36,154 nt of DNA, from the NCBI GenBank assembly GCA_030533105.1, contig JAUNJT010000005.1, positions 1 to 36,154 on the forward strand, in the 5' to 3' direction. Position numbers and translations under genes: made by a program. Shown piece by piece: positions 1 to 36,154 of this stretch (its first letter is position 1; each line of letters opens with the position of its first letter). The DNA comes from Eggerthellaceae bacterium. Its GTDB lineage: Bacteria; Actinomycetota; Coriobacteriia; Coriobacteriales; Eggerthellaceae. The notes under the pieces are model-generated. The model did not search any database, was not told where the DNA came from, and saw only the letters and a program-made list of their open reading frames with translations.

Positions 1-701
1 GTTTTTTCTTTGTCATGCTGGATGACAGAATCCGTATATTCATTCAAGAAATCATGTGAATCAACGTACACGCATGTAAGATGAGGAAGGTTCTCGTTGA
101 TGTAATGTTTGATAGCGCATAATAAATGCGTTTTCCCTAAACCGCTCTTTCCATAAATGAACAGAGGATTTAAATGAGATTTTCCTGGAGTCTCTGCAAC
201 TGCAACCGCTGTTGAATAAGCCATTCTGTTTGAGTCTCCGATAACGAAGTTCTCGAATGTATAACTGGCCATTTGATTACCGGTTAGATCATCGGAATCC
301 GTTTGTACACTCGTTTGGTTTGAAGATTCAGACTTGTTTCCCTGCTGGTTCTCCTTTTTGCTTTGAGAAGGAGCCTTTTTCTCCTGATGCTCTTGCGTAT
401 TAACGCCAGTAGTGAAAGAAGCCTCCTCTTCAGAATCATCAGTTTTCTCAATTTCAATGAGAACAGAGAAGGGAACGCCATATAAGGCTTGAAGTGAGCT
501 CTTGATTATTTCGAGATAATGGCACTCTATCCATGTTTTGATGAAGTCATTATCAGTAGTGAGCATTAAGAAGCCAGGGCTCATTGCCTGAGGGCGCAAG
601 CGCGAGAAAATAGCATTGATTTGTGCAGGGTCGATATTATCTAAGCTTTTTATATGGGCACAAACATCATCCCATTGCTGTTGTAATTCTTTACTGTTCA
701 T
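1..701 (-). CDS. dnaA: Chromosomal replication initiator DnaA (N-terminal part, truncated by window edge)
   Basis: Initiator ATPase that binds DnaA boxes at oriC and opens the duplex. Reading leftward from the ATG at 701 the protein begins MNSKELQQQWDDVCAHI, a typical domain I that would contact the helicase or regulators. A linker of roughly 60 residues rich in Q, K, E and S follows, then domain III with SYTFENFVIGDSNRMA and the Walker A motif YGKSGLGKTH at about residue 180. The reading frame is still open at base 1, so the Walker B, sensor and DNA-binding domain IV lie outside the window. No strong Shine-Dalgarno precedes the ATG. The gene points away from oriC and from rpmH. Identity is near certain from the domain I and AAA+ signatures. 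Confidence 0.96.
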   Translation of the reverse strand, partial: MNSKELQQQWDDVCAHIKSLDNIDPAQINAIFSRLRPQAMSPGFLMLTTDNDFIKTWIECHYLEIIKSSLQALYGVPFSVLIEIEKTDDSEEEASFTTGVNTQEHQEKKAPSQSKKENQQGNKSESSNQTSVQTDSDDLTGNQMASYTFENFVIGDSNRMAYSTAVAVAETPGKSHLNPLFIYGKSGLGKTHLLCAIKHYINENLPHLTCVYVDSHDFLNEYTDSVIQHDKEK

Positions 702-721
702 GTATAAGCCAATCCGTGACG

Positions 722-753
722 ATTCGGTAGTTGAGGGTCCTAGTATACCGAAT
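722..753. promoter_or_regulatory. Inverted repeat in the dnaA leader
   Basis: ATTCGGTA (722-729) and TACCGAAT (746-753) form 8-bp complementary arms around a 16-base spacer, in the 101-base gap between the HATPase-HTH gene and dnaA. On the minus strand TATACT (747-742) overlaps one arm and could be a -10 element for dnaA, though no convincing -35 is present. It may be an operator, an mRNA hairpin, or both; there is no T-run, so it is not a standard terminator. Confidence 0.4.
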
Positions 754-802
754 TTACGGGTTGATTATTATGGTAAAGAGAACAATTTGATGAAAGGGAA
801 AC

Positions 803-1588
803 TTAAGAGAGAGAAGAGGATATTTCCTTCCCATACTGTGTGAGAATCCGCTTCTGACGTGCTGTTTTCTCAACGATTCCCGCTTCTTCTAGCTCAACAA
901 GAGCCTTATGTGTACTTGAAAGAGGAATGTTTAAGAGATTTGTTATCTCTGTGACACCCAGTGCATCTTCTAAAGTCAGAAGATTGATGATCTGCTTTTG
1001 ACGATCGTTGAGGAACGGGATAAGAACATGTGCTTTTCCTTGAGGTTGCCTTAAAGATTGGTTTTGATCAAGGCTGATGGTGATTACCGCCCCAGTAGTA
1101 AGGTTATCCTCGATGGTTATGGTTCCATGTGAACTATTCAAATACTCGCGTACTATAGGAAGGCCAGATCCAACACCACGTATATATTCTTTCATTTGAG
1201 TGGTTGCAGAAGAGAAGCCGGGCAATTGAGCTTTATCCTTCTTCTCTATACCAGGGCCTTGATCGGCGAACCGTATGGTATTTCCCTTATCGAGAATGGA
1301 AACGATTATTTCCTTAAACTGCGCATGAATGAAGTTTTCTGAGACTTCTCGAATAATCGTGTATGGAACTTTCCCTCCCATTTGCTGCGATTGACTGTAA
1401 ACGGCAACGGTGAGATTCTCTATAAACGTATGCGTTGGTGCCGGAGAAACCTCTGTGATCTGTGGTGCAGAAAGAAAATCGTCGTAACGAGCTATTCGGG
1501 CGACAGTGTCGACGAAGCTGTAGTCAAACGAATCTTGCTCCTGGTTAGAGGAGATGGATTTCTGAGGGTTTTCAGTGGTCGTTTCCAT
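803..1588 (-). CDS. HATPase-domain protein with C-terminal winged-helix domain
   Basis: A 261-residue soluble protein. Residues about 50-175 carry a GHKL/HATPase_c ATP-binding fold: N box IREVSENFIHAQ (near 80), G1 box DQGPGI (near 110), and G2 box GVGSGLPIVREYL (near 140). There is no HisKA dimerisation/phosphoacceptor domain, sensor domain or membrane segment, so it is not an ordinary histidine kinase; it resembles anti-sigma or serine-kinase type HATPases. Residues about 190-261 (FLNDRQKQIINLLTLED then LNIPLSSTHKALVELEEAG) look like a winged helix-turn-helix of ArsR/MarR type, so the protein probably binds DNA itself. It lies between dnaA and the origin on the same strand as dnaA, 101 bases upstream. 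A regulator of dnaA or of origin activity is an inference from position only. The ATG at 1588 has no clear Shine-Dalgarno. Confidence 0.8.
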   Translation of the reverse strand: METTTENPQKSISSNQEQDSFDYSFVDTVARIARYDDFLSAPQITEVSPAPTHTFIENLTVAVYSQSQQMGGKVPYTIIREVSENFIHAQFKEIIVSILDKGNTIRFADQGPGIEKKDKAQLPGFSSATTQMKEYIRGVGSGLPIVREYLNSSHGTITIEDNLTTGAVITISLDQNQSLRQPQGKAHVLIPFLNDRQKQIINLLTLEDALGVTEITNLLNIPLSSTHKALVELEEAGIVEKTARQKRILTQYGKEISSSLS

Positions 1589-2472
1589 TTTTCGCTATTC
1601 TGGAAATGCTTTCATTCTTTCAATAATATTCAGGCTATTTTACCTTGATTTTCACGATATTCACTAACATATTGTTGAATAGTTTAATTATTTACTCGCC
1701 TTTTCTTCTCAATCCTGAAGGAGAAGAGGTCAATTAACAGCGGTTTTCAAAGTTTTGAACAATTGTTTTACAAAAAGTGGAAAACCCTGAAAAATATTAT
1801 TCCCCACGACATGCGGTCACCGATTATTTGTTAAAAAGTCTATTGACATTTTCGTTACCTGCGTTTTCCCAGATGAAAAAGAGTACGTGTTGAGCCGCTC
1901 AATTATCCAAGGCTTTTTTACGGTAATTTTTTGTCTAGTTTCTCTCTCTTGAAGGCAAGAAAAGACAAAACACCAGATGAAACGGCATTTTTTGCCATAT
2001 ATTCAAATATTGAATCATCGGACGAAAATGGAATCCAAGCGTTCAGAACAGAAGGGGAATTATCTTTTCCACTATGGTTTTTCGAATGGGAAATGGGATT
2101 TCAACGTTTTCCACAATTTTCCACCTTCCCCTTTATGGTTTTCTGCCGGAACAGCATGCCGAATTCGCGTTGACCATTGCTTTCGTGAAAAATGTTTCGG
2201 TTTTTAACGCATCAAAGAATAGAAATATACATTTTTAAAGGAAGAAGGCGAAACGCAAGGATCTATTAACGAAAGCATCGATCCCGTTCTCATGCAGACG
2301 AGATTTCCTTGGTCTCGTATCCGAGTCTATATATATAGACTAAAGAAGAAGACAGCCCTTTAGGTAACTCTTCGCCCCGGCTCTCGTCAATGATGAGTCC
2401 TTAGTCTATATATATAGAAAGAGAGACGCCGTCCGATCGTCTTAAACCCATCGATAAAGGAAAAGGTTTTTC
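1589..2472. other. Probable replication origin oriC (gene-free)
   Basis: About 880 bases without a credible gene between the HATPase-HTH gene and the rpmH promoter. DnaA-box-like 9-mers with the core TTTTCCAC lie at 2065-2073, 2107-2115 (TTTTCCACA) and 2117-2125 on the plus strand and at 1776-1784 on the minus strand; further TTTTC-rich near-matches occur at 1742-1870. The left part (1610-1700) is very AT-rich and could be the unwinding region. A TTGACA at 1843-1848 has no matching -10. The position between dnaA and rpmH is the standard actinobacterial origin site. Confidence 0.75.
2324..2420. repeat. Pair of TATA palindromes upstream of rpmH
   Basis: The perfect 18-bp palindrome AGTCTATATATATAGACT occupies 2324-2341; its core TCTATATATATAGA recurs at 2405-2418 within AGTCTATATATATAGAAA (2403-2420). 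Both copies follow a CTCG-N(5-8)-GAG element, so a unit of about 30 bp is repeated 79 bp apart. The second copy ends about 50 bp before the rpmH -35. They could be operator sites, strand-opening elements of the origin, or cruciform-forming sequence; the sequence alone does not decide. Confidence 0.6.
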
Positions 2473-2500
2473 TTGACTTTCATATATTCGACTATATAAT
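2473..2500 (+). promoter_or_regulatory. rpmH promoter
   Basis: TTGACT (2473-2478), a 16-base spacer and a perfect TATAAT (2495-2500) form a strong housekeeping promoter 43 bases before the rpmH ATG. It would drive rpmH-rnpA-yidD and probably on to yidC and jag. Confidence 0.8.
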
Positions 2501-2542
2501 TTTGAAGTTGCTCTAAAAACACTTATAAAGGAAGATGGAATT

Positions 2543-2677
2543 ATGAAGCGTACCTACCAGCCAAATAATCGCAAGCGCGCAAAGTGCCACGGTTTTCGTG
2601 CTCGTATGGCAACCAAGGGCGGCCGTGCCGTTCTCTCTGCTCGTCGCGCAAAAGGGCGTAAGCGCCTGTGTGTCTAA
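2543..2677 (+). CDS. rpmH: 50S ribosomal protein L34
   Basis: A 44-residue, strongly basic protein: [20 protein letters not shown]... ending in ...GRKRLCV. The MKRTYQPN start, the central HGFRARM and the RRAKGRKRL end are the L34 signature, and length is typical. L34 sits in the large ribosomal subunit. The ATG at 2543 follows AAAGGAAG with normal spacing. It is the first gene of the rpmH-rnpA-yidD-yidC-jag cluster conserved next to bacterial origins; only 11 bases separate it from rnpA. Confidence 0.98.
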
Positions 2678-2688
2678 AGGGTTTCTAG

Positions 2689-3027
2689 TTGGAAACTATT
2701 AAATCCAGCGAAGAAATCACTCTTCTCTTCAAGCAAGGGAACCGCTTTCACACAGCGCACCTTACGTTCATCGTTTTATCTCAATGCGACCATGGCGAAA
2801 CATCCGATGGTCGCGTTGCTTTTATAGCAGGGAAAAAACTCGGAAACGCGGTTTGGCGCAATCGGGCCAAACGCAGGATGAGGGCAGTTTGCAAAGACAT
2901 CGGAGGTCCTTGGAGGGGACTAGATGTTGTGCTTTTAGCTAAGAATAGTATTAATGAGGCACAATATATTGATTTATTAAAGTCTTGTGCCATTATCGGG
3001 GAGAAGTTAAAGGGACTGCAGGATTGA
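2689..3027 (+). CDS. rnpA: Ribonuclease P protein component
   Basis: Protein subunit of RNase P, which with the RNA subunit matures tRNA 5' ends. The 112 residues contain the hallmark GKKLGNAVWRNRAKRRMR (about 46-63), the conserved RNR basic helix that contacts the P RNA. Translation starts at a TTG (2689), METIKSSEEITLLFKQGNRF, preceded by AAAGGG just after the rpmH stop; the N-terminus aligns with the family's usual start. Its place between rpmH and yidD is conserved in bacteria. Confidence 0.96.
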   Translation: METIKSSEEITLLFKQGNRFHTAHLTFIVLSQCDHGETSDGRVAFIAGKKLGNAVWRNRAKRRMRAVCKDIGGPWRGLDVVLLAKNSINEAQYIDLLKSCAIIGEKLKGLQD

Positions 3028-33940: not shown

Positions 33941-33958
33941 TAATACCGTTTAGTATTA
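33941..33958. promoter_or_regulatory. Operator-like palindrome 1
   Basis: TAATACCGTTTAGTATTA: a TAATAC half-site, 6-base spacer and its exact reverse complement GTATTA. First of three like sites in this gap, about 75 bases upstream of the -10 of the minus-strand small-protein gene. Confidence 0.7.
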
Positions 33959-34004
33959 AATGAATTGGGCGACAAACAGAAAAGGGAAGCCACATTAATC
34001 AAAA

Positions 34005-34022
34005 TAATACTAAATAGTATTA
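34005..34022. promoter_or_regulatory. Operator-like palindrome 2
   Basis: TAATACTAAATAGTATTA, same half-sites as copy 1. The symmetry is even longer (34003-34024 forms 10-bp arms around AA). Confidence 0.75.
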
Positions 34023-34130
34023 TTAAGAGCGGTATTTTACTACAGAAGGTTTTTGTTCTGTCCTACTCAAAATAAATGTTAATTAAGAGTAAATTCGCTA
34101 CCATGAGAGGAAAAAAGCTAGAAATACTTC

Positions 34131-34159
34131 TTGACAGTAATACCATTCAGTCTTATTTT
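34131..34159 (+). promoter_or_regulatory. Promoter with embedded operator (copy 3)
   Basis: TTGACA (34131-34136), a 17-base spacer and TATTTT (34154-34159). The spacer and -10 hold TAATACCATTCAGTCTTA (34138-34155), which matches the TAATAC-N6-GTATTA motif in 11 of 12 half-site bases. A repressor bound there would block RNA polymerase. Confidence 0.65.
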
Positions 34160-34165
34160 AATCGC

Positions 34166-34345
34166 GTAGATGTTGCCGCTGAGAATACTCCTTTTCAGTA
34201 GCATCTTCTTCAAAAGCCGAATCTTCCCCGGCTTGTTGCTTGCGGAATTCCAAGATGGCGTTTCAGGCGCTCCGTAGACGGCATCTTGGAACTGCGAGAA
34301 GGCCTTCCCATGAATTCCCCTTTCATGAGAAGGCCTTGGTTTTTC
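34166..34345 (+). ncRNA. Candidate structured non-coding RNA
   Basis: From the predicted start about 7 bases after the -10 at 34159 the plus strand shows four consecutive hairpins and no credible gene: GATG...CATC around a CTGA/TCAG helix (about 34170-34206); AAGCCG/CGGCTT (34214-34234); TTCCAAGATG/CATCTTGGAA (34248-34257/34282-34291, 10 bp); and AAGGCCTT + CATGAA / TTCATG + AAGGCCTT (34299-34337), which is followed by GGTTTTT, an intrinsic terminator on this strand only. The promoter carries an operator. Not like any RNA family I know. Confidence 0.5.
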
Positions 34346-34386
34346 ATGCGTGCCGAGAGTTGACGCGCGCTTGCTCTGTCGCAGAC

Positions 34387-35418
34387 CTACTCAGGATCGC
34401 CTACCCAATGCTCGCGTTCGCCGCACGGTCTCGGGTCGATTCCCATCCAATAGCAATCCGCCGCATCGCGGCATAGCTTGCACGTACGCAGCTTATCCGC
34501 GGGCACGCCTGCAAGCACATCGTGTGCCCAGTCGGGATTTACGCACATGCTCCGCCCTACGGCAACCATGTCGCATAAATCGTTCTCGACCAGATATCGG
34601 GCGAACTCGCCGGTGTTGATGCACGACACGCACATGACGGGGATGTTGACTGCTTTGTGAATCAGCGTGCCTCCGTAGCATACGAAATCCCCTGGGAAAT
34701 CAGCGGGGGGCAGTGTGGAGTAGGGGCTTGGTCCGAACGAGACATGCAGCATGTCGTAGCCGGCTTCTTCGAGTGCGCGCGCGACTTTTGCGGCGCCTTC
34801 GGCATCAGGCGTGCTTCCCGCGATGCGAATATCCACGATGAAATCGGGTCCGCATGATGCTGCGATGGCTTTGCGGATGTTCCGGAAGAAGCGCATGCGG
34901 CCATCGAAATCAACGCCGTACTCATCCGTTCTCGTATTGAATGCCGGGTCTAAGAACAGCGACAGGAACCAACCATGTCCAGCATGGATCTCCACGCCAT
35001 CGCAGCCTGCGCGCCAAGCGCGTATCGCGGCATCGAGAAAGTATTGTTCGAGCGCATGCATTTCCTCGGTGCTGAAGCGTCCGATTTCACCCTCGGTGCT
35101 GAGCTGCGCGAGGACCACAACGCCGTTTTCGTGGCAGTGAGTTGCGATTTCTCTTAAAGCATCCGCCTGCTCGTCTTTCCATAAGCCTGCCATACGGTTG
35201 AAGAAAACGCCTTCTTCGTCTGGGGTGACGATATTGGTGCCGAGGATGATCATACCCATACCTCCTTCGGCAAGGCGCTTGTAGAAAGCGATTTGCTCAG
35301 GACGCATGAGGCAGTTTTCATCGAGCGTGTGGTCTATGCGAGATAGCGGCGCGCAGACGATGCGGTTCCTCAAGGTCTTGCTGCCTACTGTGATCGGGTC
35401 GTCAAGGCGCGGACACAC
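34387..35418 (-). CDS. NADH:flavin oxidoreductase, old yellow enzyme family
   Basis: A 343-residue FMN oxidoreductase. It begins at GTG 35418 (VCPRLDDPITVGSKTLRNRIVCAPLSR), 6 bases after AAAGGGG; the upstream frame is open but unsupported. The TIM-barrel motifs are VEIHAGHGWFLSLFLDPAFNTRTDEYG (about 170-196) and DIRIAGSTPDAEGAAKVARALEEAGYDMLHVSFG. The end, TCKLCRDAADCYWMGIDPRPC, has four cysteines in C-x2-C-x5-C-x9-C. 2-Enoate and dienoyl-CoA reductases carry a 4Fe-4S site at the equivalent place with somewhat different spacing; unlike them, this protein stops there, with no FAD/NAD domain. Divergent from a molybdoenzyme gene, which suggests both act in reduction of an organic electron acceptor. 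Confidence 0.88.
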   Translation of the reverse strand: MCPRLDDPITVGSKTLRNRIVCAPLSRIDHTLDENCLMRPEQIAFYKRLAEGGMGMIILGTNIVTPDEEGVFFNRMAGLWKDEQADALREIATHCHENGVVVLAQLSTEGEIGRFSTEEMHALEQYFLDAAIRAWRAGCDGVEIHAGHGWFLSLFLDPAFNTRTDEYGVDFDGRMRFFRNIRKAIAASCGPDFIVDIRIAGSTPDAEGAAKVARALEEAGYDMLHVSFGPSPYSTLPPADFPGDFVCYGGTLIHKAVNIPVMCVSCINTGEFARYLVENDLCDMVAVGRSMCVNPDWAHDVLAGVPADKLRTCKLCRDAADCYWMGIDPRPCGEREHWVGDPE

Positions 35419-35786
35419 AGGAACCCCTTTCAGGAGAGAAGAAACCACCGCTGTCGTTATAAAGCAGACGCTAAAAAGCATCGTAACACAATGCGATTCG
35501 CAACACGGACGGCCGCAGTTCATTTTAGTTGAAGGACAACTGCTTTTCATTCGTGGCGACAAGCGAATTAAACCTTTAAGTATTAGATATGGGCGATGTT
35601 TCCGACGCATAGTCTCATGCAACAAAATCATAGATTTTGCTAGAATGAATCCGAACCTAGTATTAGGTGTGGTTTTTCGCACTGGTTCGCTGGTGTTGTC
35701 TGACCGTTTCGGTTAGATACCGACGAGCATCTCGCGCGCCATGTGCTAAGGCCGAGAAAAGAAGAGAAAGGAAAGGAGCGCAAAAC
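35419..35786. promoter_or_regulatory. Divergent promoter region between OYE and molybdoenzyme
   Basis: 368 bases without a gene. Plus-strand TGCTAGAAT (35638-35646) is an extended -10 candidate. TTAAACCTTTAAGTATTA (35568-35585) matches the TAATAC-N6-GTATTA motif in 10 of 12 half-site bases, and ACCTAGTATTAGGT (about 35656-35669) is another palindrome. A regulator shared with the 33941-34155 sites is possible. Confidence 0.4.
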
Positions 35787-36154
35787 ATGGTTGATTATCA
35801 AGCATTCCTTGACAGCATCAACAGGGAGGCGTACCACGCTGGCGAGCTCACTTGGGAAGAGGACGGGTACACGTGCACCCGTACATACCATTACTCTCCT
35901 CCGGGTTGCCATACCTCTTGCGGCTTGATCTATTATGTCAAGGACGGCAAGGTGTGCAAGATTGAGGGCGACCCGCTGGATCCCTGCGCAAACGGCAGGC
36001 TCTGCATGCGCTGTCTCGAGAACGACGAGGCTATCAACCATCCTGATCGCGTGAAGTATCCTATGCGTCGCGTCGGTGAGCGCGGCGAGAACAAGTGGGA
36101 GCGCATCACGTGGGATGAGGCCTACGACGAGATCGAGAAGAACGTCCGCGAGAT
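35787..36154 (+). CDS. Molybdopterin-containing oxidoreductase, DMSO reductase family (N-terminal part)
   Basis: The first 122 residues of a large molybdenum enzyme, cut by the window edge. ATG at 35787 after AAAGGAG. The sequence MVDYQAFLDSINREAYHAGELTWEEDGYTC precedes the cluster-binding region CHTSCGLIYYVKDGKVCKIEGDPLDPCANGRLCMRCLENDEAINHPDRVKYPMRRVGERGENKWERITWDEAYDEI, whose GKVCKIEGDP...GRLCMR and ITWDEAYDEI are family hallmarks (4Fe-4S site then MGD-binding domain). No Tat signal is visible at the N-terminus, so it is probably cytoplasmic, as are catechol-dehydroxylase and acetylene-hydratase-type members. Substrate cannot be told from this part. Confidence 0.93.
   Translation, partial: MVDYQAFLDSINREAYHAGELTWEEDGYTCTRTYHYSPPGCHTSCGLIYYVKDGKVCKIEGDPLDPCANGRLCMRCLENDEAINHPDRVKYPMRRVGERGENKWERITWDEAYDEIEKNVRE

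Follow-up and report, generated by a model that had tools for sequence, protein, structure and literature searches.

According to our analysis, three copies of a palindrome in an Eggerthellaceae contig are, to judge from the sequence, very probably the binding sites of a soluble LuxR/GerE-type protein of 139–152 aa, which is encoded in the sister genome G001 and in ten other Eggerthellaceae genomes. It appears likely, if well short of certain, that this regulator has as its operator the pattern TAATACY-N4-RGTATTA, whose two central bases are A or T, and that the operator controls an RNA in the genus of the window (the whole analyzed stretch of 36,154 nucleotides). The folded stretch behind the third copy makes a strong sRNA gene candidate. 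The operator–regulator pair would add a further form to LuxR-type control; the RNA has no annotation and is known in this genus only.

The genus is represented by three genomes: G000, the assembly of the window itself (1.67 Mb, 212 contigs, 89% complete), G001, and the sister species G002. A protein search of named genomes yielded two close relatives, both Eggerthellaceae MAGs, one of which originates from goat jejunum. The AT-rich block holding the palindromes is 99% identical to the window in G001 and 95% identical in G002, and it was not found elsewhere in Eggerthellaceae. The three copies reported by the first-pass annotation were recovered with exactly the same positions and sequences (Table 1). 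The half-site pairs of copies 1–3 are unchanged in G002, and the substitution rate over the site block is 2.2% (G000 vs. G002). Copy 2 has the same half-sites in all three genomes and one changed central spacer base in G002, and copy 4 also has one spacer change there. Conserved inverted half-sites and a variable spacer were found together with recurrence both at the gene of the regulator and at promoters under control, as is typical of the operator of a dimeric regulator.

Table 1. Features of the palindrome-bearing end of the window (positions in the window; mismatches relative to TAATAC-N6-GTATTA).
Feature	Position	Strand	Details
Operator copy 1 (predicted)	33941–33958	.	TAATACCGTTTAGTATTA; 0 mismatches; matrix score 27.3; same in G001 and G002
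Operator copy 2 (predicted)	34005–34022	.	TAATACTAAATAGTATTA; 0 mismatches; matrix score 29.8, the strongest
Operator copy 3 (predicted)	34138–34155	.	TAATACCATTCAGTCTTA; 1 mismatch; matrix score 23.1; same in the three genomes
Weak operator copy 4 (plausible)	35568–35585	.	TTAAACCTTTAAGTATTA; between the divergent OYE and molybdoenzyme genes; matrix score 16.2
Sigma-70-like promoter around copy 3	34131–34159	+	TTGACA-17-TATTTT; 10/12 consensus positions
Probable structured non-coding RNA gene	34165–34346	+	Four hairpins; start inferred from the promoter
RNA hairpins	about 34168–34210, 34214–34234, 34239–34298, 34299–34337	+	
Intrinsic terminator	34299–34344	+	Inverted repeat with 16-nt arms, then GGTTTTT
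Orphan CDS, 104 aa	33482–33796	-	Genus-specific; start about 145 bp from copy 1, which lies upstream
OYE-type FMN oxidoreductase CDS	34387–35418	-	Pfam PF00724, E 3e-44
Bis-MGD molybdoenzyme CDS, N-terminal part	35787–36154	+	Cut by the contig end

The path to the regulator led through a motif search of the relatives, which revealed one more copy without mismatch in G001 as well as repeated occurrences in other genera, beside a small luxR gene; a family-wide search delineated a regulator group in 11 genomes, plus four more distant paralogs. The proteins carry a C-terminal GerE/LuxR helix-turn-helix (HTH; Pfam PF00196, E 1.8e-12, residues 79–129), and over the C-terminal ~60 residues the PDB matches are the NarL, GerE and LiaR folds. 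The N-terminal ~75 residues form a helical region without a recognized family, for which Foldseek found no relative (no match at E <= 0.001). The model of the regulator has two long and two shorter helices ahead of the HTH region and no room for 10–12 transmembrane helices. Pfam shows GerE only, with neither the autoinducer-binding domain of quorum-sensing LuxR nor a receiver domain with a phospho-acceptor Asp. The regulator is similar to the NarL/FixJ/GerE-type LuxR proteins (NarL, GerE, VraR, LiaR, DosR) in its HTH domain, but differs from them in having no receiver domain.

The sites are closely linked to the regulator gene across genera. Each of the ten non-sister loci has a palindrome (0–2 mismatches) in the roughly 40 bp that precede the start of the regulator gene, and in most of them TA precedes the palindrome, so that a TATAAT, TATACT or TATAGT, the -10 box of the regulator gene, overlaps the left half-site. 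Upstream of the G001 regulator there is one palindrome with 2 mismatches at a distance of 54 bp and a perfect one at 321 bp. None of the four distant paralogs has such a palindrome upstream. The recognition helix TAKAHKYS is common to the site-bearing regulators and is different in the four paralogs without the site. A site with an A/T center and at most one mismatch was present in 11/11 genomes with the regulator vs. 26/125 without it (Fisher p = 2e-7, uncorrected for relatedness).

The first-pass annotation had placed copy 3 inside a promoter spacer, and it does lie between TTGACA and TATTTT, where it spans the spacer and reaches the -10 box. This promoter is equaled by only 4% of flank shuffles. 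The block had also been called gene-free; it contains no protein gene, but a probable structured RNA gene follows directly behind copy 3. The 182 nt after the promoter fold on the plus strand with an MFE of -77.4 kcal/mol vs. -49.9 for shuffles (z -6.7). At the level of sequence features, the stretch shows what marks a bacterial sRNA gene: a promoter of its own, an intrinsic terminator and a stable conserved structure, with no conserved frame. Rfam contains no family matching the RNA, and the search by DNA, covariance model, and against phages and plasmids revealed nothing convincing outside the genus; a G042 match (E 0.06) and a 22-nt G020 match were disregarded, as was a sub-threshold Rfam PGK match on the opposite strand (31.1 vs. 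50.8 bits).

Alternatively, the LuxR-type operators may be real and the downstream block may be a terminator region or a decayed small protein gene instead of an RNA gene, a reading that we consider unlikely. It would account for a minus-strand frame that is open in G002 and partly preserved in G000, and for a 3-base indel that is in frame; in addition, the folded block is known from no more than three close genomes. However, the open frames are disrupted by a 1-base indel that separates G000/G001 from G002, no reading frame is intact across all three genomes, and the protein-coding reading was rejected on account of these breaks between the species. The fold is stronger on the plus strand than on the opposite strand (z -4.4), and the indels sit in unpaired linkers. 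Both substitutions in the folded stretch fall at the foot of the third hairpin and preserve the plus-strand pairing (G-C to G-U and U-G to U-A), this covariation amounting to two base changes in three close genomes. Between G000 and G002, the substitution rate of the folded stretch is 1.6% vs. 6% in the OYE gene and the intergenic DNA nearby. Conservation collapses past the terminator, where 13 of 40 bases differ (32%).

The candidate sRNA presents three hairpin loops, UACUCC, AAUCUUCCC and UUCCCCU, which are C-rich and carry UCCC/CUCC; as far as the sequence goes, they could pair with Shine-Dalgarno sequences. The UCCC/CUCC motif is described as a hallmark of those Gram-positive sRNAs which pair with Shine-Dalgarno sequences (PMC3861533, a review). 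In being structured, terminator-ended and provided with C-rich loops, the candidate resembles trans-acting sRNAs with UCCC loops, such as RNAIII and the Rsa RNAs. When 124 ORF starts, the molybdoenzyme not among them, were roughly screened for duplexes with the RNA, no convincing target emerged.

The palindromes had been interpreted at first pass as the operator of a dimeric repressor. The operator part stands, with the dimer presumed, and the repressor part is well founded only at copy 3 and at the regulator's own promoter, because copies 1, 2, and 4 overlap no recognizable promoter. Over all 26 sites, promoter overlap was no better than in flank shuffles (201 vs. 194), so repression is proposed for these two promoters and not as a general rule. 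The position over the regulator's own -10 box is a standard one for autorepression and would serve it here. The DadR, HcdR, and CadR proteins of Eggerthella lenta are 10–12-transmembrane LuxR-type activators of catechol dehydroxylases (PMC9734109), and the regulator might likewise be an activator, with copies 1 and 2 as activator sites for the RNA or the orphan gene. These best-studied LuxR-type molybdoenzyme regulators of Eggerthellaceae do activate, and the location of copies 1 and 2 outside recognizable promoters would fit; we nevertheless regard activation as improbable, since copy 3 and the luxR-upstream sites occupy positions that normally block RNA polymerase; at other sites the protein may nonetheless activate. 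The regulator described here shares with DadR, HcdR, and CadR the LuxR/GerE DNA-binding domain, a neighborhood with an acetylene-hydratase-related molybdoenzyme and the bacterial family (PMC9734109). It differs from them in its small size without a membrane domain, and its own promoter is covered by the site, an arrangement that points to autorepression instead of activation. The text of PMC9734109 gives no operator palindrome for the three activators.

The window was observed at first pass to hold no regulator gene, and no copy of the LuxR-type regulator was found in the whole assembly G000 or in G002 (66% complete); the probable regulator (151 aa) was located in G001. The gap in the window's assembly is possibly due to incompleteness, because all three assemblies break inside the molybdoenzyme gene adjoining the block. 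Together with a second, more distant G001 paralog (C7), whose locus bears no palindrome, the missing gene leaves some room for a different dimeric regulator (a LuxR paralog, TetR or XRE type) with the same palindrome preference, the link to the small LuxR protein not carrying over to this genus. There is little probability in this, since G001, with its nearly identical block, encodes the regulator with sites upstream, and the recognition helix of the G001 protein agrees with that of the site-bearing group.

The genome scan for TAATAC-N6-GTATTA proposed in the earlier annotation was run, and at up to one mismatch the motif does not occur at random frequency: copies 1–3, inside 215 bp, are the only such matches in the full 1.67-Mb assembly, and the reversed-pattern control gave one. 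At up to two mismatches the window contains five matches vs. 0.35 expected (five were reached by 0/100 shuffles). Two-mismatch matches are background genome-wide (18 vs. 31 for the reversed control), and copy 4 is therefore not outstanding by mismatch count alone. Chance AT-rich palindromes without function, which the base composition of the block and the commonness of two-mismatch matches might suggest, have a negligible probability in view of this clustering, the conserved half-sites and the linkage of the sites to the regulator gene in other genera.

A weight matrix built from 20 sites, all of other genera, ranks the four copies of the window first to fourth (29.8, 27.3, 23.1, 16.2), with the next position at 8.1; only 0.03 positions scoring >=12 are expected per 36 kb. 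The training sites were picked by the half-site pattern, and agreement in the half-sites is thus partly built in; the independent part of the matrix is the center, where all training sites and all four copies have A or T at bases 9 and 10. A stricter matrix from the luxR-upstream sites only gave the same order, with a narrow margin for copy 4 (14.6 vs. 12.4). Copies 1–3 are solid as predicted sites and copy 4 is a plausible one. Mismatch counting alone would have dismissed copy 4 and was rejected as a criterion; the matrix restores it, weakly. The small regulon proposed at first pass is supported and includes molybdoenzyme promoters; the fourth copy proposed with it gains some support but remains weak.

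In other genera, the regulator adjoins an operon of a molybdoenzyme and a 4Fe-4S protein. In the complete loci, two further palindromes, 167–233 bp apart, lie between the molybdoenzyme operon and a second divergent operon, and both operons flanking the paired sites start with short peptides that have an MCFRPA start and zinc-ribbon cysteines. Divergent pairs of such ~70–85-aa peptides with a Pro/Ala-rich tail were seen to head molybdoenzyme operons (L056, L058, L059, L115–L118, L120, L099). The second molybdoenzyme is of the bis-MGD type by Pfam, with acetylene hydratase 2e7z as the best PDB match (E 2e-75); this likeness was assessed on the other-genus homologues only, the molybdoenzyme of the window being truncated. 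Acetylene hydratase is a relative of catechol dehydroxylases (PMC7028382). Judged by DNA match and by eye, the window's molybdoenzyme is similar at its start to those linked to the sites in other loci. Gordonibacter-type clusters of cytoplasmic catechol dehydroxylases comprise a 4Fe-4S partner, an MFS transporter and a LuxR gene (PMC12771579). The other-genus loci resemble them in the molybdoenzyme, the ~111–117-aa 4Fe-4S protein and the LuxR gene, but differ in the presence of MmgE/PrpD and MCFRPA zinc-ribbon peptide genes, and here the dehydroxylase role is putative. The same molybdoenzyme gene breaks all three assemblies (window 35787–36154, end of G001:C25, start of G002:C25), probably because there are several similar paralogs. 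The orphan 104-aa protein, which has no Pfam match and turned up in no genome outside the three of this genus, is a possible divergent target of copy 1.

The mechanism proposed here starts from the observed site statistics, the site–regulator linkage, the promoter overlap of copy 3 and the folding and conservation pattern of the RNA; the binding, the sign of regulation, the inducer, and the expression and function of the RNA are inferred throughout. The regulator would bind as a dimer and block RNA polymerase at its own promoter. In other genera it would also occupy the two copies between the divergent operons that encode zinc-ribbon peptides and molybdoenzymes of the acetylene-hydratase/catechol-dehydroxylase-like kind. 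The genus of the window would in addition have employed the same operator to control the roughly 180-nt structured RNA: from copy 3, the regulator would keep RNA polymerase off the RNA promoter, and copies 1 and 2, which lie upstream, may contribute through cooperativity or looping, or may act on the divergent orphan gene. The adjoining OYE/molybdoenzyme promoter may belong to this circuit by way of copy 4. More tentatively, in this gut lineage of Eggerthellaceae a LuxR-type autorepressor might control a trans-acting sRNA with anti-Shine-Dalgarno loops and so link the transcriptional sensing of a molybdoenzyme substrate to post-transcriptional metabolic control.

The Eggerthellaceae have dozens of uncharacterized molybdoenzymes that modify dietary and drug compounds, and the regulators that have been described for them to date are LuxR activators residing in the membrane. 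A defined operator with a probable soluble LuxR-type regulator and target promoters offers a directly testable second regulatory route. If true, the regulator-plus-sRNA circuit has no described equivalent for this bacterial class in the literature found, and the RNA is a concrete sRNA candidate in a group for which the literature search gave no sRNA circuit.

Several minor observations were made. Two palindromes 20 bp apart with good site scores lie upstream of murB in G001 (C12:84090) and G002 (C48:50515), with murB-upstream loci at L053:8071–8108, L054:7516–7553 and L055:7144–7161. Because the second copy is lost in the genome of the window, the pair is kept merely as a possible additional target. 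Paralogous small LuxR genes (L098:8744–9190, L100, L101), whose products are 42–45% identical to the G001 regulator, have no palindrome nearby and may have operators of their own. The helical phasing of site pairs (6.1, 22.2, 22.1, 18.0, 15.9 and 1.9 turns, with 12.7 and 18.8 for the pairs with copy 3) is suggestive only. Finally, positions 1–3000 of the window have a G+C content of 40–43% vs. 46–58% in its remaining part and are possibly acquired DNA.
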